Shown here piece after piece: positions 51,688 through 64,000 of a stretch of 64,000 bases of DNA. Position numbers and translations under genes: made by a program. Below the pieces are notes generated by a model. It made no database searches and had not been told where the DNA came from. It was given only the letters and a program-made list of their open reading frames with translations. Each line of letters begins with the position of its first letter. The stretch's first letter is position 1. The stretch covers positions 2,562,501-2,626,500 of the forward strand of contig NZ_FNTJ01000001.1 of the NCBI RefSeq assembly GCF_900105185.1. The letters are read 5' to 3'. The stretch is from Pseudomonas saponiphila (GTDB lineage Bacteria; Pseudomonadota; Gammaproteobacteria; Pseudomonadales; Pseudomonadaceae).

Positions 51688-51763
<76 letters not shown>

Positions 51764-52861: not shown

Positions 52862-53029
52862 TGCGCCCGGCGGCTCTGCCGGGCCTGTGCGTCGTCAATG
52901 TCGCGATCTTCCCCGGCGTTATCTCGGATTCTGTCCGCAGGAACAACGTGGATTTTGTCCTTCGCTATGCTTGATCTGCTAGGCCGATACGAACAGCGGA
53001 TTGTGTTTTTCCACAGGAAGGGAAGAGCT

Positions 53030-54883
53030 ATGAGCAAGAAGCTTGGAAATGCGGACATCGTCTACGCAAAAATTCACCCGTCCATAGGGATCGCGCGGGT
53101 CGGAAACTCCATGCAAGAGGATGGCTTCTATATCGGGCCACAGGTCGTGGAACCGGCACCGAAGCCGCCAGGGTTCTACCGGGACGCCACTGGAGCCTTG
53201 AAGCGCGAAGTCGCGGAATTTCGCCTCTACGGCTATGACGCCCATGGCAAGGTGGTTCGCGAGTTGCTGATGGAAGAGGGCGTGCAGATCAGCTGGTCGG
53301 TGGAACTGGCCAACCGCAAGGCTGCCTGGTACCGCTTTGAACTGGCGATGGATATTCCCGAGGCGCTCACGGCGCCGCCGTCGACGCGCCGCAATGCCGC
53401 GGTGAGCGAGCGCAGTACCCTGGCGATACTCCCCGGAATACGCAGCGTCGATGCCCCCAATGCCCAGGGCGACCACTTGCGATTTGACGGTGGCACCTGT
53501 TTTGGCATCGAGGTCCCCCTGGGCGAGTTGCGCACCGATGGTTGCGGGCGCTTGAGGGTATTCGGCGGCCATGGGAAGTCGGCCTCGTGCGACGGCCAGG
53601 CGCCTACGGATTTCGCCAACAACGACGGATGGTACGACGACACCAGCGACGGTCCGGTGACCGCCCGGGTCCGCCTCGGCGAGCGGGAGTTGCAGGTGGC
53701 TCCGGCCTGGGTGGTGGTGGCGCCGCCCAACTACGGCCCGCAGCAGAAATCGGTGCGGACCCTGTATGCGTTGATGACCGACGTGGCGATCCAGGCCGGA
53801 CTCCTGCCCACCCCGACCAGGCCTTCGTTTCGAGATGACATCTTGCCCATCCTCAAGGCCATGTGTGACCTGCAGTGGATGAACGCCGGCTTCGCCGCCG
53901 GTTTTGGCCATGGCATGGCGCAGCATTTCCTGGACCCGGATTACCTGCACAAGCTCGCGCAGCCAGGCAGCCTCTACGCCGAAATGCGGCGCACGGTGGC
54001 CAACGCTTTCCGCAATCCGGCGGACCAGGATATTTCGCTCAAGCCCTGGCCTTGGGTATACGGCGACGCGATGGACATCCCCATGCCGGCCTCGCCACGG
54101 GCGATGAACGCCTTGACCGCCACCCAGCTGAGGATGCTGGAACTGTGGGCCAGGGGCGATTTCCGCGCCGACTATTACCCTGTCCACGAGCCGGTGCACA
54201 GCCTCGATCAAGTATCCGTAACGGCACAACCGGCCATGCTCGACCGCGCCGCGCTGGAGTTCTGCCTGGCCGACGCCTTCCATCCCGGCTGCGAAATGAC
54301 CTGGCCGGTACGGCATGCATCGATGTACATGGAGCCTTATCGCTGGCGCCACCGCGCCGCCGACAATCCCGAGCCGGACTACGGCAAGACGCTGACCGTG
54401 GCCGAGGCCCTGTCCTATGACGGCCCCTTGTATGCCCAGTTTCCTGGAGCGATCACCCGCTGGATGGCGATTCCCTGGCAGACCGACACCGCCAGTTGTC
54501 GCTCCGGCTACGACAAGCAATACGATCCCTATTTGCCGACCTTCTGGCCGGCCCGGGTGCCGAATCAGGTCTTGAGCGAGGAGAACTACCGCAAGGTCAG
54601 GGATACCACGCTGGATCGTGAAGAACGCCTGGCGGCCTTTTGGCAGCGTTCCGAGTGGGACCGCACGCTGGGTGCCGGGGCCCAGCACCAATTGCAGGTG
54701 ATGGTGGAACACTTTGATCGGCAGGGGATCGTCGAGGTGCGCGAGGGCGTCGCCGACGATCCGGACTTCCCGCCGGTGATGCAGGTCGAGGATCGTGGCG
54801 GTGACGACCTGAGTCGCGAGGAGCGCAAACTCACCGACAGCGGCATGCGCAGGGCCTTCATGAGCGGGACGTTGAAACCGTGA
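53030..54883 (+). CDS. LodA/GoxA-like quinoprotein amino-acid oxidase
   Basis: Probable amino-acid oxidase with a self-built cysteine-tryptophylquinone cofactor (LodA, the lysine epsilon-oxidase, and GoxA, the glycine oxidase, are the known members). 617 aa. The N-terminus IVYAKIHPSIGIARVGNSM and the closing KLTDSGMRRAFM fit the family. The crosslink residues can be proposed as Cys421 (FHPGCEMTWP) and Trp483 (IPWQTDTASC). The ATG at 53030 has a GGAAG-type site; the longer open frame upstream is not family-like. The flavoprotein needed for cofactor formation overlaps it downstream. No signal peptide, so secretion would be non-classical as in LodA. Substrate unknown; the product would be peroxide and an aldehyde or keto acid. 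Confidence 0.9.
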   Translation: MSKKLGNADIVYAKIHPSIGIARVGNSMQEDGFYIGPQVVEPAPKPPGFYRDATGALKREVAEFRLYGYDAHGKVVRELLMEEGVQISWSVELANRKAAWYRFELAMDIPEALTAPPSTRRNAAVSERSTLAILPGIRSVDAPNAQGDHLRFDGGTCFGIEVPLGELRTDGCGRLRVFGGHGKSASCDGQAPTDFANNDGWYDDTSDGPVTARVRLGERELQVAPAWVVVAPPNYGPQQKSVRTLYALMTDVAIQAGLLPTPTRPSFRDDILPILKAMCDLQWMNAGFAAGFGHGMAQHFLDPDYLHKLAQPGSLYAEMRRTVANAFRNPADQDISLKPWPWVYGDAMDIPMPASPRAMNALTATQLRMLELWARGDFRADYYPVHEPVHSLDQVSVTAQPAMLDRAALEFCLADAFHPGCEMTWPVRHASMYMEPYRWRHRAADNPEPDYGKTLTVAEALSYDGPLYAQFPGAITRWMAIPWQTDTASCRSGYDKQYDPYLPTFWPARVPNQVLSEENYRKVRDTTLDREERLAAFWQRSEWDRTLGAGAQHQLQVMVEHFDRQGIVEVREGVADDPDFPPVMQVEDRGGDDLSREERKLTDSGMRRAFMSGTLKP

Positions 54884-56034
54884 GCGCAACGGCTCGGCCA
54901 GCGCTGGAGAGCCATTGCGATGTCATCGTGTTCGGCGCCGGGCCAGCGGGCTCGGCGCTGGCCCACAGGCTGGCGCCAAGGCACCGCGTGCGAGTACTGG
55001 AGCGCAGCCTGCCGAGCCAGTCCTCGCCCGCTGCACAAGCCTGGCGCATCGGTGAGTCATTGCCCGGCGCGGCAGCGGTGCTGTTGCGCCGACAAGGGCT
55101 GTTGGAGCGTTTTCTGGCGGACGGCCATGCACCACGCGGCGCCAGTGTTTCAGTGTGGGAAACCCCGCAAGCGGTGTGGTTCGATGCCCTGCGTGACCCC
55201 AACGGCCCTGGCTGGCACCTGGACCGTGTGCGGTTCGACGCGATGCTGCGCAACGCCGCAGGCGCAGCGGGGGCGGTCTTCTCGGCGGTAGCCGGAGGTG
55301 TTCAGGTGCGGCGCGAAGGTGGGCGCTGGCAGGTGCAAGATGAACGCACAGGGCAGTGCTACAGCGCCCGAGCCCTGGTGGACGCCACGGGCCGCAGCGC
55401 GGTCCTGTGTCGCGCTTTGGGCCTGCGCCAGCAGACGCAGGACCGCCTGCTCTGCGTCCATGCCCGGCTTCCGGCGCTGGCACAGGACCAGGATCGTTGC
55501 ACGCGGACCTGCGCGGATGTGGACGGCTGGTGGTACAGCGTGCGCCTGCCCTCGGGCGATCGGGTGCTGGCCTACCATCTGGATGGGCGGGATCCGGCCC
55601 TGCAAGCGTTGCGCAACGGGCCGGCGCTGCTGAGCCACGCCAGGCGCCTGCCGCTGTTGGCGCCGGTGCTGCCCGAGGCTGTTGCGTCCCTGGCAACCCG
55701 GGTGCGACCGGCCGGCAGCGTGCTCTTGAATACCGCCGACGGGGTGCCGGGACCGGGCTTCTACGCCGTCGGCGATTCGCTGCTGGCTTTCGATCCGCTG
55801 TCATCCCAGGGGTTGTTCCATGCCCTGGCCTCGGCGGAAAGCGCGGCCACGGCGATCGAGGGGGAATTGGCCGGCGACCCGCGCGCCGGCCAGCACTACT
55901 TTGTGCAGATGCGCGAGGTGCAGGCCCGCTATAGCCAGCACCTGGCCGCCACTTACGCCCGGCCCGAGCGTTACCGCGAGCGCCCGTTCTGGGCGCAACG
56001 GCGCGCTCCGTTGCAGGCGCCGCCAGCGCAATGA
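54880..56034 (+). CDS. LodB-like FAD-dependent maturation enzyme
   Basis: 384-aa flavoprotein of the tryptophan-halogenase/PHBH-like group. N-terminal FAD fold DVIVFGAGPAGSALAHRLAP (GxGxxG), LVDATGRSAV in the middle and a C-terminal GFYAVGDSLLAFDPLSSQGLFHAL (GD motif). The start GTG at 54880 overlaps the oxidase stop (GTGA), the standard lodAB pairing in which LodB-type protein modifies the oxidase's cofactor tryptophan. No tryptophan-halogenase WxWxIP motif is seen, in line with a LodB role. Confidence 0.9.
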   Translation: MSATARPALESHCDVIVFGAGPAGSALAHRLAPRHRVRVLERSLPSQSSPAAQAWRIGESLPGAAAVLLRRQGLLERFLADGHAPRGASVSVWETPQAVWFDALRDPNGPGWHLDRVRFDAMLRNAAGAAGAVFSAVAGGVQVRREGGRWQVQDERTGQCYSARALVDATGRSAVLCRALGLRQQTQDRLLCVHARLPALAQDQDRCTRTCADVDGWWYSVRLPSGDRVLAYHLDGRDPALQALRNGPALLSHARRLPLLAPVLPEAVASLATRVRPAGSVLLNTADGVPGPGFYAVGDSLLAFDPLSSQGLFHALASAESAATAIEGELAGDPRAGQHYFVQMREVQARYSQHLAATYARPERYRERPFWAQRRAPLQAPPAQ

Positions 56035-56357
56035 ACCGCTCCGGCGGCCGCCTCATGCGCCGCCGCTCACGGCAAACAGGCACCGGGCGCCCTGGCGGCG
56101 ATTCCGCATCAACCCTGGGGGGAGCAGTGGGGCAGAAGACCGGCGAACGGTCTGGCGCCGGCGATGAGCTGTGCAAGACGGCTCGGAAACAATTGGAATA
56201 ATTTGCTCACAAACTCAAATAACCCCACGAACGCAATTGTGGATCCGCGGGCGCTGGCTGCCCCATCATCGGAGCCCTGCAAGCAGTGCAGTGGGGCTCC
56301 AGCAGCCATTTATTCACCGACCATCGCTACCCGCCTGTGTCGATACAGGGATGTCAT
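56035..56357 (+). promoter_or_regulatory. Intergenic region before the SpeD-like gene
   Basis: 323 bp. An AT-rich patch (AATTGGAATAATTTGCTCACAA region, about 56190-56235) suggests a promoter for the SpeD-like gene. No gene recognised. Confidence 0.45.
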
Positions 56358-56777
56358 ATGAACCCGGATGCCAATGCTTTTTTTGGAAGGCACACCCTGG
56401 GCGAGCTCTATCAGATCTCTCCCGAAAAGCTCAACGACCTAGAGGCCCTGACCCGGTTGCTGTGCGCAGCATCCGTCGAAGCGGGGGCCACCGTGTGCGG
56501 CACCATGACCAAGCGCTTCGAGCCCCAGGGGGCGACGGTGCTGGTGATGCTGGCGGAGTCCCATGCTTCCTTTCACACCTATCCCGAGCACGGTGCGCTG
56601 TTTCTCGACATCTTCACCTGTGGCACCACCTGCGATCCGGTCAAGGCCTTCGACTACATCTGCGCCAGCCTCAAGTGCGATGTGCGAGCGATGAAGATCG
56701 TCGAGCGCGGAGCGCTGGGCGGCGACAGTCGAGCGGCCCGGCCGGCGCTGGCCAGCCAGGGGCTGCACAGTCACTGA
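56358..56777 (+). CDS. SpeD-like pyruvoyl-dependent decarboxylase (class 1b AdoMetDC family)
   Basis: 139-aa proenzyme. Self-cleavage is predicted between Glu67 and Ser68 in LAESHASFHTYPEHG, making the pyruvoyl group. His73 and Cys88 (DIFTCGTT) match the other catalytic residues and the spacing equals that of the Thermotoga enzyme (63/68/83) shifted by 5. Canonical function is decarboxylation of S-adenosylmethionine for spermidine synthesis. No spermidine synthase is near, and pseudomonads usually carry speD elsewhere with its partner. SpeD homologues have been reported to work as ornithine or arginine decarboxylases, so the substrate here is open. Start ATG 56358. Confidence 0.88.
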   Translation: MNPDANAFFGRHTLGELYQISPEKLNDLEALTRLLCAASVEAGATVCGTMTKRFEPQGATVLVMLAESHASFHTYPEHGALFLDIFTCGTTCDPVKAFDYICASLKCDVRAMKIVERGALGGDSRAARPALASQGLHSH

Positions 56778-57083
56778 GCGGGCCCCCTGGGGAAGGCAAG
56801 ACGCTCGCAGGTTCGGCGGCTGATGAACAGCCGGTGAATACGCTGAGCAAGTTTGTTGCAAGTTGATGTTTGTTACAGGGGAGCTTGTTCATCCAGGCCA
56901 TGTCGCTTGGTTGTGCCATTGCCATTGATTGAACTGTCCATTTGCAAGTTGCACTGCATCTTTCAAGTTTGAAAGAGCAGAACCTTGATTGATTGTTTTT
57001 ATAAGTGGTTATAGGCCAGTGGTCGGCCGGTGCCTGTTCGTAACCTGCTGTTCATTATGTTTATCTCTTGGGAGTGAGTGATC
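56778..57083 (+). promoter_or_regulatory. AT-rich control region of the biosynthetic operon
   Basis: 306 bp with lower G+C than the flanks. TTGCAAGTTG occurs at 56856-56865 and 56942-56951 (86 bp apart). A perfect palindrome CTTTCAA-GT-TTGAAAG lies at 56960-56975. A weak promoter (TTGATT at 56985, TTATAG near 57009, 18-bp spacer) follows, then GGGAG before the AlkP start. These look like operator and promoter sites for the downstream genes; the regulator is not in the window. Confidence 0.55.
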
Positions 57084-58583
57084 ATGGAAGATCAAAAGTT
57101 GAAGTTGCTGGTCTTCGGTGTCGATGGCGCCTCCCATGCCGTGCTCCAGCAATTGATGGCGCGGGGCCTGTTGCCCAACTTCAGCGCGCTGCGTCGGCGC
57201 GCCGCCCACGGGGTGTTGCAATCGACCTTTCCACCCCATACCGCACCGGGCTGGGCCTCCATGTTTACCGGGGTTTCCCCGGGTGAGCACGGGATCTACC
57301 AGTTCTGGTCGACCCACAGCGCCGACTATCGTTTCCGCGCCATGAATGCCGCCGATTACGGGCGCGAACCCTGCTGGCTGACCTTGCAGCGCCATGGCCT
57401 GAAAGTCGGCGCTTATAACATTCCCATGACTCACCCGCCGGCCGACTTGCAGGGCGGCTACATGATCAGCTGGCCCCTGGCCAAGACTTTGAGATATACC
57501 GCTCCCGGCAACTTGATGCATGAACTGATGCAGGCGGGGCTGCACTATCATTCCGATCTGGTCACCATGTATCGCGGCCAGGAAGATTATTGCGAACAGG
57601 CGCGAAAGTTTATCGATGGTCGCGCCGAAACTTGCTGTTTTCTGCAAAAGAACCGGCCGGTCGATGCACTCTTCGTGGTCTTTACCGAAGTCGACCGGGT
57701 CAGTCATTACTATTGGGGCGATGCCCAGGCCCCCAGCGCGGCGGTGGAACAGTGCTACGTCGACATCGACCGGGCGCTGGGCACCTTGCTGACCCTGACC
57801 GACGACCAGACCCTGGTGGTGGTGGCTTCCGATCACGGCTTCGGCCTGTGCGAGGCCGACTTCAGCGTGCACGAATTCCTCCAGCAGCATGGCCTGCTGG
57901 CCACCCGTTTCGAACGACAGCAGGACGGCGCCGAGACGGCGCACGACGATCCGGGCGCGCGCTCCTGGTTCGACGACCCCGCCAGCTACCGGCGGCTGAT
58001 CGACTGGTCGCGCACCGACTTCTACATGCCCACTCCCGGCTGCTTCGGCCTTAACGCCAACCGGGTGGGGCGCGAGGCCCAGGGCCGCCTGACCGACGAG
58101 CAGTTGCCGGCCGCCGAAGAGCGCCTCAAGCGCGCCCTGGCCCAGGTGCTCGACGATCAGGGCCAGCCCTGGTTCAGGCTGGTCCGCGCCGACCAGGTCT
58201 ATGCCGGTGCGCGGCTGACGGATGCCCCGGACTACCTGCTGATCCCCAGGGACTTCAGCGTCATGCCGACCCCGAGCCTCACCGGGCAGGTCTGGAGCAC
58301 GCCGACCCAGCGCGGGGTGCATCGCCCCGACGGCATCGTCTTCATCCGCGGTTCGAACTTTGCGCAAGACGCCGCGCTGCAAGCGCGGATCGAAGACATC
58401 TACCCGACGATCCTCGCCCACCTGGGGCTGCCGGTGCCGGAAGGGCTCGAAGGCCACTGGCTGCTGGAACCGCCCCAGGAGCCCCGGCGCGAGCCCGGGC
58501 GCAAAGGCAGCGGCGGGCCCCGCATGAGTGAAGAAGAGCAGCGCTTCATGGACAGCCAATTACAGCAAATTGGGTACTTTTAA
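57084..58583 (+). CDS. Alkaline-phosphatase-superfamily phosphohydrolase/phosphodiesterase
   Basis: 499-aa type I phosphodiesterase/nucleotide pyrophosphatase-like enzyme. The metal-site Asp14 is in VFGVDGASH and the nucleophile is probably Thr53 in FPPHTAPGWASM. Further metal residues are in FTEVDRVSHYYWGD and VVASDHGFGL. The C-terminal His is probably in GVHRPDGI. ATG 57084 fits GGGAG at 9 bp; GTG 57078 is an alternative. First gene of a tight operon; the next gene overlaps by 1 bp (TAATG). Cytoplasmic (no signal). In this context it could hydrolyse a phosphate ester or nucleotide-linked intermediate, or a phosphonate; inference only. Confidence 0.88.
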   Translation: MEDQKLKLLVFGVDGASHAVLQQLMARGLLPNFSALRRRAAHGVLQSTFPPHTAPGWASMFTGVSPGEHGIYQFWSTHSADYRFRAMNAADYGREPCWLTLQRHGLKVGAYNIPMTHPPADLQGGYMISWPLAKTLRYTAPGNLMHELMQAGLHYHSDLVTMYRGQEDYCEQARKFIDGRAETCCFLQKNRPVDALFVVFTEVDRVSHYYWGDAQAPSAAVEQCYVDIDRALGTLLTLTDDQTLVVVASDHGFGLCEADFSVHEFLQQHGLLATRFERQQDGAETAHDDPGARSWFDDPASYRRLIDWSRTDFYMPTPGCFGLNANRVGREAQGRLTDEQLPAAEERLKRALAQVLDDQGQPWFRLVRADQVYAGARLTDAPDYLLIPRDFSVMPTPSLTGQVWSTPTQRGVHRPDGIVFIRGSNFAQDAALQARIEDIYPTILAHLGLPVPEGLEGHWLLEPPQEPRREPGRKGSGGPRMSEEEQRFMDSQLQQIGYF

Positions 58584-60397
58584 TGGAAACCGTGCCGTTC
58601 ACCAACGCCGCCGAAGGGCTGATTCCCCTGACCAATCTGGCCGAGTCGTTTGACGCGCCAGCGGCCAATCCACTGCATTCCAGTGTCGACTTCCGCAAGC
58701 CGCAGCCCATGCGGGTGTGCTTCCCGGTGCTGCTCGACGGCGACCTGGTGATGAGCTCCGAGCACCTGGGCGTCAGTTACCTGGTGTCGATCCTGCGGGA
58801 CCTGGGGGCCGAGTGCCTGGTGGTCGAGGTCAAGTCGATCCAGCACGGCGACGAGATCGCCATCGCCGAGGTGGTGGCTTTCAAGCCCGACCTGATCGGG
58901 TTCTCCCTGACCACGGTCACCGTCAGCCACGCCACCGCGTTCGGTGCGGCGTTGCGTGCGGCGCTGGAGCCGCGGGTGGCCTTTCTGGCCGGCGGTCCGC
59001 TGGCCACCTTCCTCGGCTCCAAGCTGTTGAGCAACCCCAACTGGAGCTTCCTCGACGCCCTGGTGCGGGGCGAGGGCGATGTGCCGCTGGTGCGCTACGT
59101 GGAAGCCTTCTGGGATCACGGCGACTACGCCTCGGTGCCTAGCCTGAGCTGGCGCGAGGAGGGCGGGTTCGTCATCGACAACCCCATCGGCAAACCGCTG
59201 CCGGAACTGGACATGCTGCCCGAACCGGCCCGGGATCAGTTCGAACTCAACCATGGCAAGCTGCCTTACCTGCGCCTGGCCACCACCCGCGGCTGCACCG
59301 CTCGCTGCACCTTCTGCAACGCCCCCCACGCCGGCAACAAGATCAACCCCGGCAAGCTGTGGCGGGCCAGGACCCCGGACAACATCGTCGATGAAATCGA
59401 GCGCCTGTATCACAAGTACAACTTCAACACCTTCGACTTCGTCGACTCCACCTTCGAAGACCCGGGTGGCGCGCCGTTCGCCAAGCAGCGCATCGCCGAC
59501 ATTGCCCAGGGCGTACTCGATCGCGGCCTGAAGATTTATTACAACTGCTGCATGCAGGCCAAGAACTGGCACGCCGAGGACCAGCCGCTGCTGGACCTGC
59601 TGTACCGCTCGGGCCTGGAAAAGGTGCTGATCGGCATCGAGTCGGGTTCGCAGATCGGCCTGGACCGCTGGAAGAAGAAATCCACGGTCGAGGACAACAA
59701 GCGCGCCATCGAACTGGTGCGCGGCGCCGGCATCTACGTGGCCTTCGGCTTCATCGCCTACCACCCCTGGTCGACCTTCCAGGAGATCCGCGACAACAAC
59801 CTCTTCCTGCGCCAGTACATGGGCTACAACCTGCGCCGCTACACCGTGCGCCTGGAGCTCTATCCCGGTGCCGAAGCCGTGGAAACCCTGCGCGCCGAAG
59901 GCAAGCTGCATGACGACTTCGACGTCTCGCTCAACGCCCTGAGCTACGACTTCGAAGACCCGCGGGTGCGCCAGCTGTCGTCCATCAGCGCCTTGCTCTA
60001 CGGCGAGAGGTACGCCTCGGAAATGGTCATCGAAAAGGAACCGGCGGTGTTCGAATTCGAGACATACGACATCGTCATGCACACCTTCATGTCGCGCCTG
60101 CGCCGGGCGGTGCTGGATGACCCCCGGGGCCTGGCGATCCTCCAGGCGGGGGAGGCCAAGGCCGCCGACCTGCGCCGGCAGATGAGCGACTTCAACTACG
60201 AGCTGATTTCCCAGATGACCGACCTGGCCGAAGAGGGAACCCTCACCGAGGCCTATGCCCACGAACGGCGGCCCCAGGTCGAGCAGTTCTACCGGGGCAA
60301 GCTCGGCGAGCTGCGCCAGGTGCAGTTGGGCATCAGCATGCAGCTGCACCGCGCGGGCCTGAGTCTGCGCGACATCCAGTTCAGCAAGGAGTCCTGA
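58583..60397 (+). CDS. B12-binding radical SAM enzyme
   Basis: 604-aa radical SAM protein. The N-terminal half is a cobalamin-binding-like Rossmann domain (about 45-190, VSYLVSILRDLGAECLVVEV and FLAGGPLATFLGS). The 4Fe-4S cluster ligands are Cys238, Cys242 and Cys245 in TRGCTARCTFCNAPH. The rest of the core follows (FVDSTFEDPGG, EKVLIGIESGSQIGLDRWKK). The DxHxxG cobalamin-ligand motif is not obvious, so B12 may bind base-off without a His ligand or not at all. Such enzymes methylate, cyclise or rearrange unreactive carbons. Start ATG overlaps the AlkP stop. Confidence 0.88.
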   Translation: METVPFTNAAEGLIPLTNLAESFDAPAANPLHSSVDFRKPQPMRVCFPVLLDGDLVMSSEHLGVSYLVSILRDLGAECLVVEVKSIQHGDEIAIAEVVAFKPDLIGFSLTTVTVSHATAFGAALRAALEPRVAFLAGGPLATFLGSKLLSNPNWSFLDALVRGEGDVPLVRYVEAFWDHGDYASVPSLSWREEGGFVIDNPIGKPLPELDMLPEPARDQFELNHGKLPYLRLATTRGCTARCTFCNAPHAGNKINPGKLWRARTPDNIVDEIERLYHKYNFNTFDFVDSTFEDPGGAPFAKQRIADIAQGVLDRGLKIYYNCCMQAKNWHAEDQPLLDLLYRSGLEKVLIGIESGSQIGLDRWKKKSTVEDNKRAIELVRGAGIYVAFGFIAYHPWSTFQEIRDNNLFLRQYMGYNLRRYTVRLELYPGAEAVETLRAEGKLHDDFDVSLNALSYDFEDPRVRQLSSISALLYGERYASEMVIEKEPAVFEFETYDIVMHTFMSRLRRAVLDDPRGLAILQAGEAKAADLRRQMSDFNYELISQMTDLAEEGTLTEAYAHERRPQVEQFYRGKLGELRQVQLGISMQLHRAGLSLRDIQFSKES

Positions 60398-60400
60398 GCC

Positions 60401-61528
60401 ATGAGCAAAGCCGAACCGGTGAACTTCCTCGGCCACAGCCGCTTGCTGGGCAACGACCTGGTGATCAACGAGGACTCCTGCAACCTGGGCTGCACCTACT
60501 GCCTGACCGGGCAGAGCAACATGAAGTCGTCCCACGAGGGCAAGTTGATCTTCCAACCGCCGGTGCATGACGTCTACAGCGAAGACAGCGAGCTGGGCCA
60601 GCGCCTGCAGACCATCGTCGAACGGGTCAACCGCACCTTCAGGCCACCGCTGCTGAAACTCACCGGCGGCGAGATCTTCATCATCAAGGGCATCATGAGC
60701 TTCATCGAGCGCATGGCGCCGCTGCACGAGGTGCTGATCGTCCAGACCAACGGCCTGCCGCTGACCCGGGACAAAGTGCGGCGCCTGGCCGAGCTGGGCA
60801 ATGTCGTGGTGCAGATTTCCCTGGACAGCAGCCACTATGAGGGCAACAGCTACCGGGTCCTGTCGCCGCGCATCCACGAGATGATCATGGAGCGCATCGC
60901 CATGGTCCTGGAGGCCGGCCTGCCGCTGGAAATCTACGGCGTGCTGAATGATCGCAGCGCGCCTTACCTGCGGGAGTTCGTCGAATGGTGCGCCCAGTTC
61001 GAAGACAACCCGCCGCAGCTGTTTCCCTTCCCCGTGCGCGGCCCGGACAGCGACAGCTTCAAGGTCCGGCCCGAGCAGTATCCGCTGATCGATGAGCTGT
61101 TCGAGCTGCGCGAGCGCTACCCGCAGATCCTGCCGCCCAAGGCCTACCTGGACCGCCTCAGTTCCTTCTATCACCAGGGCCGGCGCACCTGGCGCTGCCA
61201 CCTGCCGCGGCTGGTGCTGTCGACCTTCAGCGACGGCGTGGCCACGCCGTGCCCGAACATCTGGTTCCACAACATGGGCAACCTGCTGGAGGACGACTGG
61301 AACAAGGCCCTGGCCCCGGTCAACCGTTCACCTTTCTATCAATTGCTGCTGGCCGAGCGGCCGCGCCTGGATGCCTGCAAGGGCTGCTTCACCCCCTGGG
61401 ACACCCTGAGCCTGTACTTCGAGGACGCCATCAGCCTCGACGAACTGTGCCGCGCGCCGTCCTACGCTCCGGCAGCGGTCAGGAGCCTGCTTGAACACGC
61501 CAAGGAGGCCTATCGCCATGGTGCATGA
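60401..61528 (+). CDS. Radical SAM enzyme with C-terminal Cys-rich region
   Basis: 375-aa radical SAM protein: cluster motif CNLGCTYCL (Cys27, 31, 34), then KLTGGEIFI in place of the usual GGE motif context, and IVQTNGLPL and VQISLDSS core strands. The C-terminal part carries several cysteines (WRCHLPRLVLSTFSDGV, TPCPNIWF, CKGCFTP) that fit a SPASM/twitch-type auxiliary cluster. It starts 3 bp after the preceding stop and overlaps the next gene by 11 bp, so it is co-translated. Together with the B12-type enzyme it gives the cluster two radical steps. Confidence 0.88.
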   Translation: MSKAEPVNFLGHSRLLGNDLVINEDSCNLGCTYCLTGQSNMKSSHEGKLIFQPPVHDVYSEDSELGQRLQTIVERVNRTFRPPLLKLTGGEIFIIKGIMSFIERMAPLHEVLIVQTNGLPLTRDKVRRLAELGNVVVQISLDSSHYEGNSYRVLSPRIHEMIMERIAMVLEAGLPLEIYGVLNDRSAPYLREFVEWCAQFEDNPPQLFPFPVRGPDSDSFKVRPEQYPLIDELFELRERYPQILPPKAYLDRLSSFYHQGRRTWRCHLPRLVLSTFSDGVATPCPNIWFHNMGNLLEDDWNKALAPVNRSPFYQLLLAERPRLDACKGCFTPWDTLSLYFEDAISLDELCRAPSYAPAAVRSLLEHAKEAYRHGA

Positions 61529-63749
61529 GTGGCCTGACGACGAGCGCTGGTTCAACGAAGTGACCGCCGGCCCGGTGCTGGCCGCCTTGCCTGTCGCCGT
61601 GCGCGAGCGCTGGGCAGAGCCGCTGGCGGCGCTGGCCGCCGCTGGCCCGCAGCGCCTGCTGCTGGTGTTCGACAGTTCCCTGGAGCATGTCGCTCTGCTG
61701 CTGATGCTGCTGCAGCACGGCCTGTCGCCGCTGCTGGTGGCCAGCGATGCCCGGCCCGGGGAATTGCAGCGCTACGCGGCCCAGGCCGCCATCAGCCACT
61801 GCCTGGCGCTGGACCAGGGGCAATTGCAGGTGACCCGCCTGGAGCCGGGCAGCGGCGAGGCGGCGCCGCTGCCGCAGCGGCGTGGCCTGTATCTGCTGAC
61901 CTCGGGCACCACCGGCGAGCCGTCGCTGATCTTTCGCGATCTGCAAAGCTGGCGTGACGAAGGCCTGCGTTACTGCCGCCTGCTGCAACTGGCCCCCGAG
62001 GACCGGGTGCTGTTCATCGCTCCGGTGTATCACGCCTATGCCCTGGGCTGGTTATGGGGCGCGCTGCTGGCCGGGAGCCAGGTGCGGGTCTGCAAGCCCA
62101 CGGAGCTGGGGGCCGGGTTGCGGGCGTTGCGCCACTGGGCCAGCCATGCCGTGGTGACGCCACTGCTGGCCGGTCTGCTGGCCCAGCGCGGCGGACCGGG
62201 AACCCGTCCCGAAGGGCTCAAGGGGGTGATGTCCGGCGCCGGCCCGGTGGACGGCCAGCTCGACCAGCAGTTCCAGCAGGCCTTCGGCATCGGCCTGTCG
62301 CGCAACTATGGCAGCACCGAAAGCGGTGCGGTGTTTGCCGGCGTCGCGCCGTTGCCGCCGCTGTCCATCGGCTTTCCCATGCCGGGGATCGAGGTGCTGC
62401 AGCCGGGCGCGCCGGGCCTGCCCTTCGCCCTCAAGGTGCGACTCGAAGACGGGCGCCTCTACGACACCGGCGACATCGCCGAACAGAGCGCCGCCGGCTA
62501 CAGCATCGTCGGCCGCGAAAGCACGGCGATCCGCCGTGGCGAGCGCTGGATCTCGCCGTTCGAGATCGAGTCGGTGCTGGGCAGCCACCCGGATGTGCAG
62601 GATTGCGCGGTGCGTGCGGTCAAGTCGGCCCAGGCGGGCAACGACCATGTCTTTGCCTTCGTGGTCTGGAACCCGCAACGCCCGTGGGACCCGCGCCTGC
62701 TGCGCGAGCATTGCCAGGCCCACCTGGCGCCGGCCAAGGTTCCCGACCGTTTCGAGCGCACGCCGCTGATCGCCCGCAGCGGCAACGGCAAGCCGCTGCT
62801 CAGCCGGCGCTATCGTCCGGCGAACAATCAGGTGCTGCTGGAGGCCGCCCATGCCTACAAGCGTTCGCAGTTGCTGCTGGCGCTATGGGAGAGCGGGGCC
62901 TTGCAGCTCAGTGCCCAGGGCCTGAGCGTCGATCAGATCGCCCAGCGCACCGGCCTGCATGCCCACACCCTGGCGGTGGCCTTCGACACGGCCCAGGCCA
63001 ACGGCCTGCTGCACGAGGCCGCGGAGGCCGAGACGCCGCAGGACCTGGAGGACCTGGCCGCGGTGCTGGACCTGGAGTCCTTCAACAGCCGCCACTGGAA
63101 CCGCCTGGACGCGTTGCTGGCGGTGCTGCACGACGGCCTGGACCGGCGCGCCTTCGAACAGACCCCCAAGCACCCGCAACTGCAGCGCCGTTACCAGCGC
63201 GCGGTGGCCGGGGCGGACAAGCAACTGGCAGCCCAACTGACCTGGCGCAAGGCCCTGCACAAGGCCCCCAGGGCCATCGCCCTGCTGGACATCTGCGCCA
63301 CCGGCGCGGTGTACACCCAGGCTTTGCTGGGCCGTCGGCGCCTGGATTGCCGGGCCAGTCGGATCGTGCAGCTGGGCGGGCTCAACCCGCCGGCGGCGGA
63401 TATTCCGGTGCACAGCCACGAGGACCTGGCGCAGCTGGACGCGCGCGGGTTCGACGTGATCGTGCTCGACAACACCCTGCATCAGCCCGGGGTGGCCCAG
63501 GCCCTGCCGGCCTTGCTTGAACGCCTGGGGCCCGATGGCCAGCTGATCATCGACGAGATCTTTTTCAACGACACGGCTTCGGCGGCCGTCGGTGTGGACT
63601 GGCTGACCCATGGTGGCTGCCAGTACCCGCGGCAGGCCGAAGTGGTGACGGCGCTGGCGCGCCATGGATTCGTCGCCGAGCCAGTCTGGCGCCGCGAATC
63701 GACGATTTACCAATGCACGATGTTATTCACCAGGAGTTTAGAAAAATGA
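61518..63749 (+). CDS. Adenylation enzyme fused to winged-helix/methyltransferase-like domain
   Basis: 743-aa two-part protein. Residues 1-435 form an AMP-binding acyl/amino-acid-activating domain: YLLTSGTTGEPS (A3, near 125-136, lacking the usual PKG lysine), NYGSTESGAVF (A5), YDTGDIAE (A7), GRESTAIRRGERWISPFEIE (A8), and the catalytic Lys of RSGNGKPLLS (A10, near 425). Residues about 447-500 read as a winged helix (SVDQIAQRTGLHAHTLAVAF). The last about 225 residues resemble O-methyltransferases (VIVLDNTLHQPGVAQALPAL, LIIDEIFF) but lack a clear GxGxG SAM loop. It should load an acid onto the carrier protein encoded next. Start ATG 61518 has AAGGAGG. Confidence 0.85.
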   Translation: MVHEWPDDERWFNEVTAGPVLAALPVAVRERWAEPLAALAAAGPQRLLLVFDSSLEHVALLLMLLQHGLSPLLVASDARPGELQRYAAQAAISHCLALDQGQLQVTRLEPGSGEAAPLPQRRGLYLLTSGTTGEPSLIFRDLQSWRDEGLRYCRLLQLAPEDRVLFIAPVYHAYALGWLWGALLAGSQVRVCKPTELGAGLRALRHWASHAVVTPLLAGLLAQRGGPGTRPEGLKGVMSGAGPVDGQLDQQFQQAFGIGLSRNYGSTESGAVFAGVAPLPPLSIGFPMPGIEVLQPGAPGLPFALKVRLEDGRLYDTGDIAEQSAAGYSIVGRESTAIRRGERWISPFEIESVLGSHPDVQDCAVRAVKSAQAGNDHVFAFVVWNPQRPWDPRLLREHCQAHLAPAKVPDRFERTPLIARSGNGKPLLSRRYRPANNQVLLEAAHAYKRSQLLLALWESGALQLSAQGLSVDQIAQRTGLHAHTLAVAFDTAQANGLLHEAAEAETPQDLEDLAAVLDLESFNSRHWNRLDALLAVLHDGLDRRAFEQTPKHPQLQRRYQRAVAGADKQLAAQLTWRKALHKAPRAIALLDICATGAVYTQALLGRRRLDCRASRIVQLGGLNPPAADIPVHSHEDLAQLDARGFDVIVLDNTLHQPGVAQALPALLERLGPDGQLIIDEIFFNDTASAAVGVDWLTHGGCQYPRQAEVVTALARHGFVAEPVWRRESTIYQCTMLFTRSLEK

Positions 63750-64000
63750 CCGACACCGACCGCTTGATCAAAGTGTTCTCCAGCACCGTGGGCCGTGAAC
63801 TGAACCGGGAAGACCTCTCGGGAGGGGACCTGATCGGCAGCCTCGGGCTGAACTCGATCGACGCCCTGCAACTGCTGATCCAGGTGGAAACCGAATTTGG
63901 CTTCTCCATCGAGGACAACGAGCTGTCCATCGAACTGGTCAATTCCCTGGAGCGCCTGGAGGCCTTCGTCGCCGACAAGACCCAGGCCCGGGTGGGCTGA
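63746..64000 (+). CDS. Acyl carrier protein
   Basis: 84-aa carrier protein with the phosphopantetheine Ser37 in GLNSIDALQLL and helix I RLIKVFSSTVGREL. Start ATG 63746 overlaps the stop of the adenylation gene (ATGA) and has AGGAG. Its stop is the last codon of the window. Directly behind an activating enzyme, it is the probable carrier for the cluster's substrate. More genes of the cluster may follow beyond the window. Confidence 0.92.
   Translation: MTDTDRLIKVFSSTVGRELNREDLSGGDLIGSLGLNSIDALQLLIQVETEFGFSIEDNELSIELVNSLERLEAFVADKTQARVG

Follow-up and report, generated by a model that had tools for sequence, protein, structure and literature searches.

What is made by the five genes at the end of a 64,000-nucleotide stretch of Pseudomonas saponiphila DNA (NCBI RefSeq assembly GCF_900105185.1, contig NZ_FNTJ01000001.1, positions 2,562,501 to 2,626,500; G000:C1:2562501-2626500 in our numbering and the window in what follows)? 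An original prediction, made from the window alone, saw in them and in three genes just upstream a biosynthetic cluster with no counterpart among known pathways. The biosynthetic content was borne out, whereas the lack of a counterpart did not survive the extension past 64000: the operon at 57084-64000 makes up only about the opening fifth of a gene cluster some 37 kb long, which reaches some 29 kb beyond the window, to at least window-scale position 93,364, and the added genes give a 3-amino-5-hydroxybenzoate (AHBA) and amino-sugar pathway with enzyme types of early mitomycin biosynthesis. We propose that this pathway probably works like early mitomycin assembly, in which AHBA would be joined to glucosamine; that it is a mitomycin cluster is a claim we do not make.

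The operon at the end of the window

Ten loci were compared, all chosen for having the gene of a B12-binding radical S-adenosylmethionine (SAM) enzyme: our own, G061, Pseudomonas sp. LD120, P. protegens FD6, Pseudomonas sp. PH1b, P. fuscovaginae IRRI 6609, a Rhodospirillaceae metagenome-assembled genome (MAG), Burkholderia sp. D-99, a gammaproteobacterial MAG (gamma MAG) and Sphingomonas sp. DG1-23. The open reading frame (ORF) list and the Pfam and NCBIfam scans confirm the predicted frames and families and place the five genes in one tight operon:

57084..58583, + strand: AlkP1, alkaline-phosphatase superfamily, phosphodiesterase type (PF01663, E = 1e-40); matched at 10/10 loci
58583..60397, + strand: B12-binding radical SAM enzyme (PF04055 and PF02310); 1-base overlap with AlkP1
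60401..61528, + strand: second radical SAM enzyme (radical SAM 2; PF04055), proposed MitD-type role; 3-base gap upstream; matched at 10/10 loci
61518..63749, + strand: adenosine monophosphate (AMP) ligase with a C-terminal O-methyltransferase-like domain (PF00501/PF13193), proposed MitE-type role; matched at 10/10 loci
63746..64000, + strand: acyl carrier protein (ACP; PF00550, E = 2e-6), proposed MmcB-type role; 4-base overlap upstream

With overlaps of 1, 11 and 4 bases, a single 3-base gap and a GGAG run before four of the five starts, the single-operon reading is a fair one. In AlkP1, residues D14, T53, D204, H208, D250, H251 and H413 are invariant in 7/7 aligned sequences; we take them to be the usual metal and nucleophile positions. 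The B12-radical SAM enzyme is 47-99% identical across the nine other loci and belongs to a family that is broad in database searches, with actinomycetes and Sorangium included (269 relatives at E <= 1e-40 among 7999 scored candidates). Its nearest solved relative, over the core only, is OxsB (E = 3e-28), a B12-radical SAM ring contraction enzyme from a different pathway. Radical SAM 2 keeps CxxxCxxC together with C266, C284, C326 and C329 in 7/7 aligned sequences, and these four C-terminal cysteines would fit an auxiliary cluster.

The start of the AMP ligase is best placed at 61518, and its predicted model (mean pLDDT 82) resembles coenzyme A and aryl-acid ligases. The predicted fusion of adenylation and methyltransferase domains stood as regards the fold, an O-methyltransferase-like one: the C-terminal half is methyltransferase-like (hhalign 99%), and Foldseek matches its model (mean pLDDT 76) to the CurJ C-methyltransferase and PhzM. 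Methyl transfer by this half is doubtful, because no Pfam methyltransferase scored above its cut-off in the AMP ligase of the window and the SAM loop appears eroded; a working methyltransferase is thus not supported. In the ACP, the serine of the carrier motif is kept in 6/6 aligned sequences; tblastn matched the protein at 9/10 loci, and the tenth has an ORF of the same family.

Genes beyond the window

The downstream DNA was read as stretches L003 (+63499 for window-scale positions) and L015 (+82499). The operon is followed, in order, by genes for a cystathionine-synthase/methionine-lyase-family pyridoxal phosphate (PLP) enzyme, an OsmC-like protein, a VOC protein, a sulfotransferase, a HAD phosphatase, a type II dehydroquinase, a carrier protein, a non-ribosomal peptide synthetase (NRPS), a second VOC protein, a DUF1801 protein, a methyltransferase, a hexapeptide acetyltransferase, an adenosine 5'-phosphosulfate (APS) kinase, an MMPL pump, a LolA-like, an outer-membrane-like, a flavin adenine dinucleotide (FAD)-like (no Pfam match) and a BpsA-like protein, PIG-L, GT2, a MATE pump, Gfo/Idh, DegT, AlkP2, a transglutaminase-like protein, a short-chain dehydrogenase/reductase (SDR) and a ROK kinase. 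Gfo/Idh, ROK, SDR, GT2 and PIG-L were assigned by Pfam, the FAD-like and outer-membrane-like labels by eye from the sequence. Four of these features are used below:

Window-scale 68,929-72,927: NRPS with TubC, condensation/heterocyclisation (Cy)-like, adenylation (A), thiolation (T) and thioesterase (TE) domains
L003:5430-6929 (window-scale 68,929-70,428): condensation domain of the NRPS, heterocyclisation type
Window-scale 81,610-82,764: BpsA-like gene
L015:6147-7433: AlkP2, second alkaline-phosphatase-superfamily gene; matched at 10/10 loci

The predicted absence of a condensation domain therefore holds inside the window and fails beyond it. PDB matches of the condensation domain are mainly heterocyclisation domains, and cyclisation may have been lost, given that the NRPS of 7/7 loci, the Rhodospirillaceae MAG included, has Arg where the DxxxxD motif should begin with Asp. 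The A domain looks cysteine-type, judged by its code. The sulfotransferase keeps the nucleotide loop GLPRSGTS in 7/7 aligned sequences and is matched at 10/10 loci, the APS kinase at 8/10; PIG-L keeps HxDD in 7/7 aligned sequences, and the glycine motif of the SDR is largely kept. At the expected catalytic positions AlkP2 departs from AlkP1: its first motif has Glu preceding Gly, and Ser stands in YEPS (7/7 aligned). AlkP2 perhaps catalyses another reaction, or none. Past the ROK/YitT end, genes continue on the same strand (L015:11072-16671, window-scale 93,571-99,170; GT2-like and desaturase-like by eye), and the first two also trail the cluster in G061, so that the cluster may reach further to the right.

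Predicted AHBA supply

By sequence, DegT appears to be an AHBA synthase. Its best match in the whole PDB is RifK (1b9h, E = 3.3e-105), 49 orders of magnitude ahead of the next protein (4.1e-56). DegT and its counterparts, at 10/10 loci, share 42-50% identity with RifK, and all ten retain FSFQNxKLMTAGEGG, the stretch around the PLP-lysine. According to the part of PMC8788734 consulted, RifK, RifL, RifM, RifN and RifJ act in the AHBA/kanosamine pathway, AHBA is the starter of ansamycins, and the rif cluster carries an aminodehydroquinate (aminoDHQ) synthase and a class II amino-3-deoxy-D-arabino-heptulosonate 7-phosphate (aminoDAHP) synthase, RifG and RifH. Besides the AHBA synthase, our cluster shares with it, at the family level, the kanosamine-branch types RifL (oxidoreductase), RifM (HAD phosphatase) and RifN (ROK kinase) and a RifJ-type aminoDHQ dehydratase (type II dehydroquinase). 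For the HAD protein, TIGR01454 ('AHBA synthesis associated protein') gives a match of 1e-58, short of the model cut-off, and the dehydroquinase exceeds two of the five NCBIfam cut-offs listed. In contrast to the rifamycin system, counterparts of RifG and RifH were not found in the cluster, and the own-cluster proteins scanned include no AHBA-primed polyketide synthase. The gamma MAG locus contains a class I DAHP synthase. A second gene of the DHQ-synthase family lies outside our cluster (G000:C1:510371-510700), is also found in LD120 and is absent from five other genomes searched; it might encode the aminoDHQ synthase or another cyclase.

Conservation and co-occurrence

The co-occurrence check at the ten loci bears out the five genes as a conserved unit. 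AlkP1, both radical SAM enzymes, the AMP ligase, sulfotransferase, dehydroquinase, PIG-L, GT2, Idh, DegT and AlkP2 are matched at 10/10 loci, a core common to five lineages (Pseudomonas, Burkholderia, Sphingomonas and the two proteobacterial MAGs), and SDR and ROK are matched at 8/8 loci read that far, the FD6 and PH1b stretches ending earlier. The genes for the B12-radical SAM enzyme and the AHBA synthase lie 2-27 kb apart in all ten genomes, which were chosen for the former. Among 298 genomes of the genus, each of the two occurs in three, the same three, our own included. In G962, a matching genome among 60 relatives of the Burkholderia genome searched, the 32 kb read holds the same cluster genes except SDR, ROK and APS kinase, none of which was seen there.

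Database hits point the same way. A tight GT2 group comprises 69 hits of at least 220 bits, above a visible gap among the 120 matches listed; for 15 of its 37 hits on contigs of at least 10 kb, the contig has exactly the same size as that of a listed B12-radical SAM hit, whereas in a control with randomly shifted sizes such agreements averaged 0.06 and never exceeded 3. The cluster is rare, since 0/397 other genomes in the phylum sample have the B12-radical SAM enzyme at E <= 1e-90; the AHBA synthase was found at E <= 1e-80 in 0/297 other genomes of the family sample.

Proposed pathway and comparison with mitomycin assembly

In mitomycin biosynthesis, as described in the parts of PMC8621148 and PMC9570651 consulted, MitE activates AHBA, MmcB holds it, MitB adds N-acetylglucosamine (GlcNAc), MitC deacetylates, and further processing falls to MitF and to MitD, a radical SAM enzyme; the mitomycin cluster also includes the carbamoyltransferase MmcS (PMC8621148, in the same parts). 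Our cluster holds each of the early types at the family level: AMP ligase, ACP, GT2, PIG-L, SDR and radical SAM (two). The likeness to the early stage of the mitomycin/FR900482 pathways of Streptomyces thus covers AHBA supply, loading on an ACP (there likewise a stand-alone one), glycosyltransferase, deacetylase, reductase and radical SAM enzyme, and lies at the level of enzyme family; one relative, the Rhodospirillaceae MAG, has a carbamoyltransferase in common with the mitomycin cluster as well. In contrast to those systems, the hosts here are Gram-negative, the AMP ligase is fused to a methyltransferase-like domain, the B12-radical SAM gene stands beside AlkP1, a sulfotransferase (mostly with APS kinase) and two AlkP enzymes are conserved, neither aminoDHQ synthase nor class II aminoDAHP synthase is in the cluster, and the Pseudomonas clusters have extra cysteine-type NRPS, SpeD and BpsA-like modules.

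Starting from the observed genes and families, the AHBA synthase recognised by sequence, and the conservation and co-occurrence described above, we infer every reaction and the product of the following pathway. UDP (uridine diphosphate)-glucose would be converted to kanosamine-6-phosphate by Gfo/Idh with DegT, the HAD phosphatase and the ROK kinase (RifL, K, M and N types), then to aminodehydroquinate by enzymes of the shikimate pathway with genes at other genomic sites, and to AHBA by the type II dehydroquinase and AHBA synthase. The AMP ligase would load AHBA on the ACP, like MitE and MmcB; as the original prediction had supposed, the adenylating protein very likely activates an acid, which then stays on the ACP through the radical SAM steps. 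GT2 would add GlcNAc, PIG-L deacetylate and SDR reduce (like MitB, MitC and MitF), a radical SAM enzyme would form a C-C bond like MitD, and the B12-radical SAM enzyme would methylate or rearrange the scaffold. The sulfotransferase, fed by APS kinase, would sulfate a hydroxyl, plausibly providing a leaving group for an aziridine or other ring closure, and the AlkP enzymes would remove a phosphate or nucleotidyl group. In Pseudomonas, the cysteine-type NRPS module would extend the product, SpeD and the BpsA-like enzyme would probably add an aminopropyl group, and the MATE and MMPL pumps would then export it. Ring closure through a sulfate leaving group is a guess, modelled on azinomycin-type compounds, whose aziridine arises by sulfate elimination (as cited in the part of PMC9570651 consulted). 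The likeness to azinomycin/vazabitide aziridine formation, a sulfotransferase beside an amine-substrate pathway and a gene (APS kinase) for supplying 3'-phosphoadenosine 5'-phosphosulfate (PAPS), is one of gene type rather than of compared sulfotransferase sequences.

Several points weigh against an AHBA-glucosamine pathway of mitomycin type. The likeness to the Mit proteins lies at the level of family, short of established orthology, and GT2 and PIG-L are broad families, whose substrates here are putative. No mitomycin-named protein stands among the 120 matches listed of 610 GT2 database hits, most of which are nameless. Our own cluster has no carbamoyltransferase match (E <= 1e-5), whereas one of the ten loci, the Rhodospirillaceae MAG, does. 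Three genes of the core, for the sulfotransferase and both AlkP enzymes, are absent from the mitomycin descriptions in the consulted parts of PMC8621148 and PMC9570651. Neither aminoDHQ synthase nor class II aminoDAHP synthase was found in the cluster; copies lie elsewhere in our genome, in which class I (PF00793) was not searched. Among the ten loci, HAD is matched at nine and missing from the gamma MAG; Idh is weak in the gamma MAG and Sphingomonas (27% identity in both, and half the length in the gamma MAG), PIG-L is only 26-27% identical in the same two, and the ROK match is partial in the two most distant loci. Two other lines of search gave no lead: one with a Micromonospora B12-radical SAM enzyme retrieved many actinomycete relatives and no mitomycin-pointing name among the 120 matches listed of 358 (names abbreviated), and GT2, radical SAM 2 and the AMP ligase, each compared with the PDB, turned up no mitomycin protein.

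Upstream genes and possible mobility of the cluster

Three genes precede the operon:

53030-54883, + strand: LodA-like
54880-56034, + strand: LodB/GoxB-like
56358..56777, + strand: SpeD-like S-adenosylmethionine (AdoMet) decarboxylase (PF02675; TIGR03330 above cut-off)

Their predicted presence stands, whereas membership of LodAB in the cluster does not, and SpeD is a Pseudomonas accessory. The LodA/GoxA-like quinoprotein oxidase and its flavin maturase score well below the NCBIfam equivalog cut-offs (GoxA 386 against 750 bits, GoxB 174 against 400); the pair at 53030-56034 possibly belongs to the family but acts on a different substrate, without any connection to the cluster. We rejected LodAB as a cluster member on two grounds. 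Neither LodA nor GoxB has a match in the stretches read at the nine other loci, a test that is weak in P. fuscovaginae, where the contig ends 1.8 kb upstream of AlkP1. In G061, moreover, the cluster proteins are 89-99% identical, yet the cluster occupies a different chromosomal site, next to genes that by eye resemble ftsH and hsp20, and uvrC, pgsA, cobB, LodA and GoxB are all unmatched across the 52 kb covered. The cluster thus seems mobile, with LodAB a neighbour at one site. A tRNA-Gly gene (51688-51763) lies about 5 kb upstream of the cluster start, which together with the different place in G061 suggests horizontal movement. In the plasmid collection, radical SAM 2 has no match at 1e-10, and the B12-radical SAM enzyme matches seven records, each below 60% identity.

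SpeD occurs at 6/10 loci, all of them Pseudomonas and exactly those with the BpsA-like gene; in four of the six it lies on the other strand, in one of these at the far end. AdoMet decarboxylase makes the aminopropyl donor used by BpsA-type enzymes, so that the co-presence of the two genes makes an aminopropyl step likely in the Pseudomonas clusters.

Alternative explanations

The AHBA synthase, solid by sequence, could instead serve a product without an AHBA-glucosamine scaffold, in which AHBA is loaded and NRPS-extended while GT2 and PIG-L perform a late, ordinary glycosylation elsewhere. AHBA also starts ansamycins (PMC8788734, in the part consulted), and the Pseudomonas clusters contain the TubC-Cy-like-A-T-TE NRPS and a stand-alone peptidyl carrier protein. 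We consider this unlikely: GT2, PIG-L and SDR are kept in Burkholderia, the gamma MAG and Sphingomonas, where the stretch read has no NRPS match, which argues that they are core rather than late decoration, and no ketosynthase family match was found among the own-cluster proteins scanned. The same three lineages bear on a second alternative, in which bacillithiol/mycothiol logic yields a low-molecular-weight thiol or a metal chelator: AHBA is the aglycone of a GlcNAc glycoside that PIG-L deacetylates, cysteine is attached and acetylation follows, and a BpsA-type aminopropyl arm serves to bind metal. The pseudomonads do combine GT2, PIG-L, a Cys-like A domain, a hexapeptide acetyltransferase and SpeD/BpsA; however, the stretches from Burkholderia, Sphingomonas and the gamma MAG have no match to NRPS, acetyltransferase, SpeD or BpsA and nonetheless keep the radical SAM core and the sulfotransferase, and we regard such a product as improbable.

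A product unlike that of any known pathway, for which the operon would need SpeD and the quinoprotein oxidase LodA/LodB as well, is in our view highly implausible. LodA, GoxB and SpeD do stand directly upstream on the same strand, but the nine loci and the G061 surroundings described above speak against LodAB, as the opposite strand of most SpeD copies does against SpeD.

Implications

To our knowledge, AHBA-amino-sugar chemistry of the mitomycin type is known solely from soil actinomycetes. The openly licensed literature (titles and abstract starts, among the matches listed) yielded no Gram-negative AHBA-glucosamine pathway, AHBA cluster or mitosane cluster, and in the literature consulted the medically important AHBA products, such as mitomycins and rifamycins, come from actinomycetes. 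Because the present cluster appears to make a mitomycin-type building block joined to a sugar, an unexplored family of mitomycin-related compounds may exist in Gram-negative bacteria, and biocontrol-type Pseudomonas may harbour a hidden family of bioactive compounds. If the AHBA-glucosamine pathway is correct, culturable pseudomonads and Burkholderia would make the middle of mitosane biosynthesis (radical SAM C-C bond, aziridine), so far poorly solved, accessible in tractable hosts, through the conserved sulfotransferase and B12-radical SAM genes, which can be deleted singly. More tentatively, and more likely wrong than right, we envisage that Gram-negative bacteria make a class of AHBA-glucosamine compounds related to mitomycin, with a reactive ring formed via a sulfate leaving group, the pseudomonad member being joined to cysteine and an aminopropyl arm. 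Such a class would represent new DNA-reactive natural products and show one solution to the aziridine step.

Further observations

A ketosynthase-like ORF (L012:3580-5817, labelled by eye) is present in the Burkholderia and Sphingomonas stretches at 36% identity, without a match in eight other regions. Burkholderia sp. D-99 also has a second B12-radical SAM-like ORF (L039:11690-13498), which by eye resembles the cluster enzyme.

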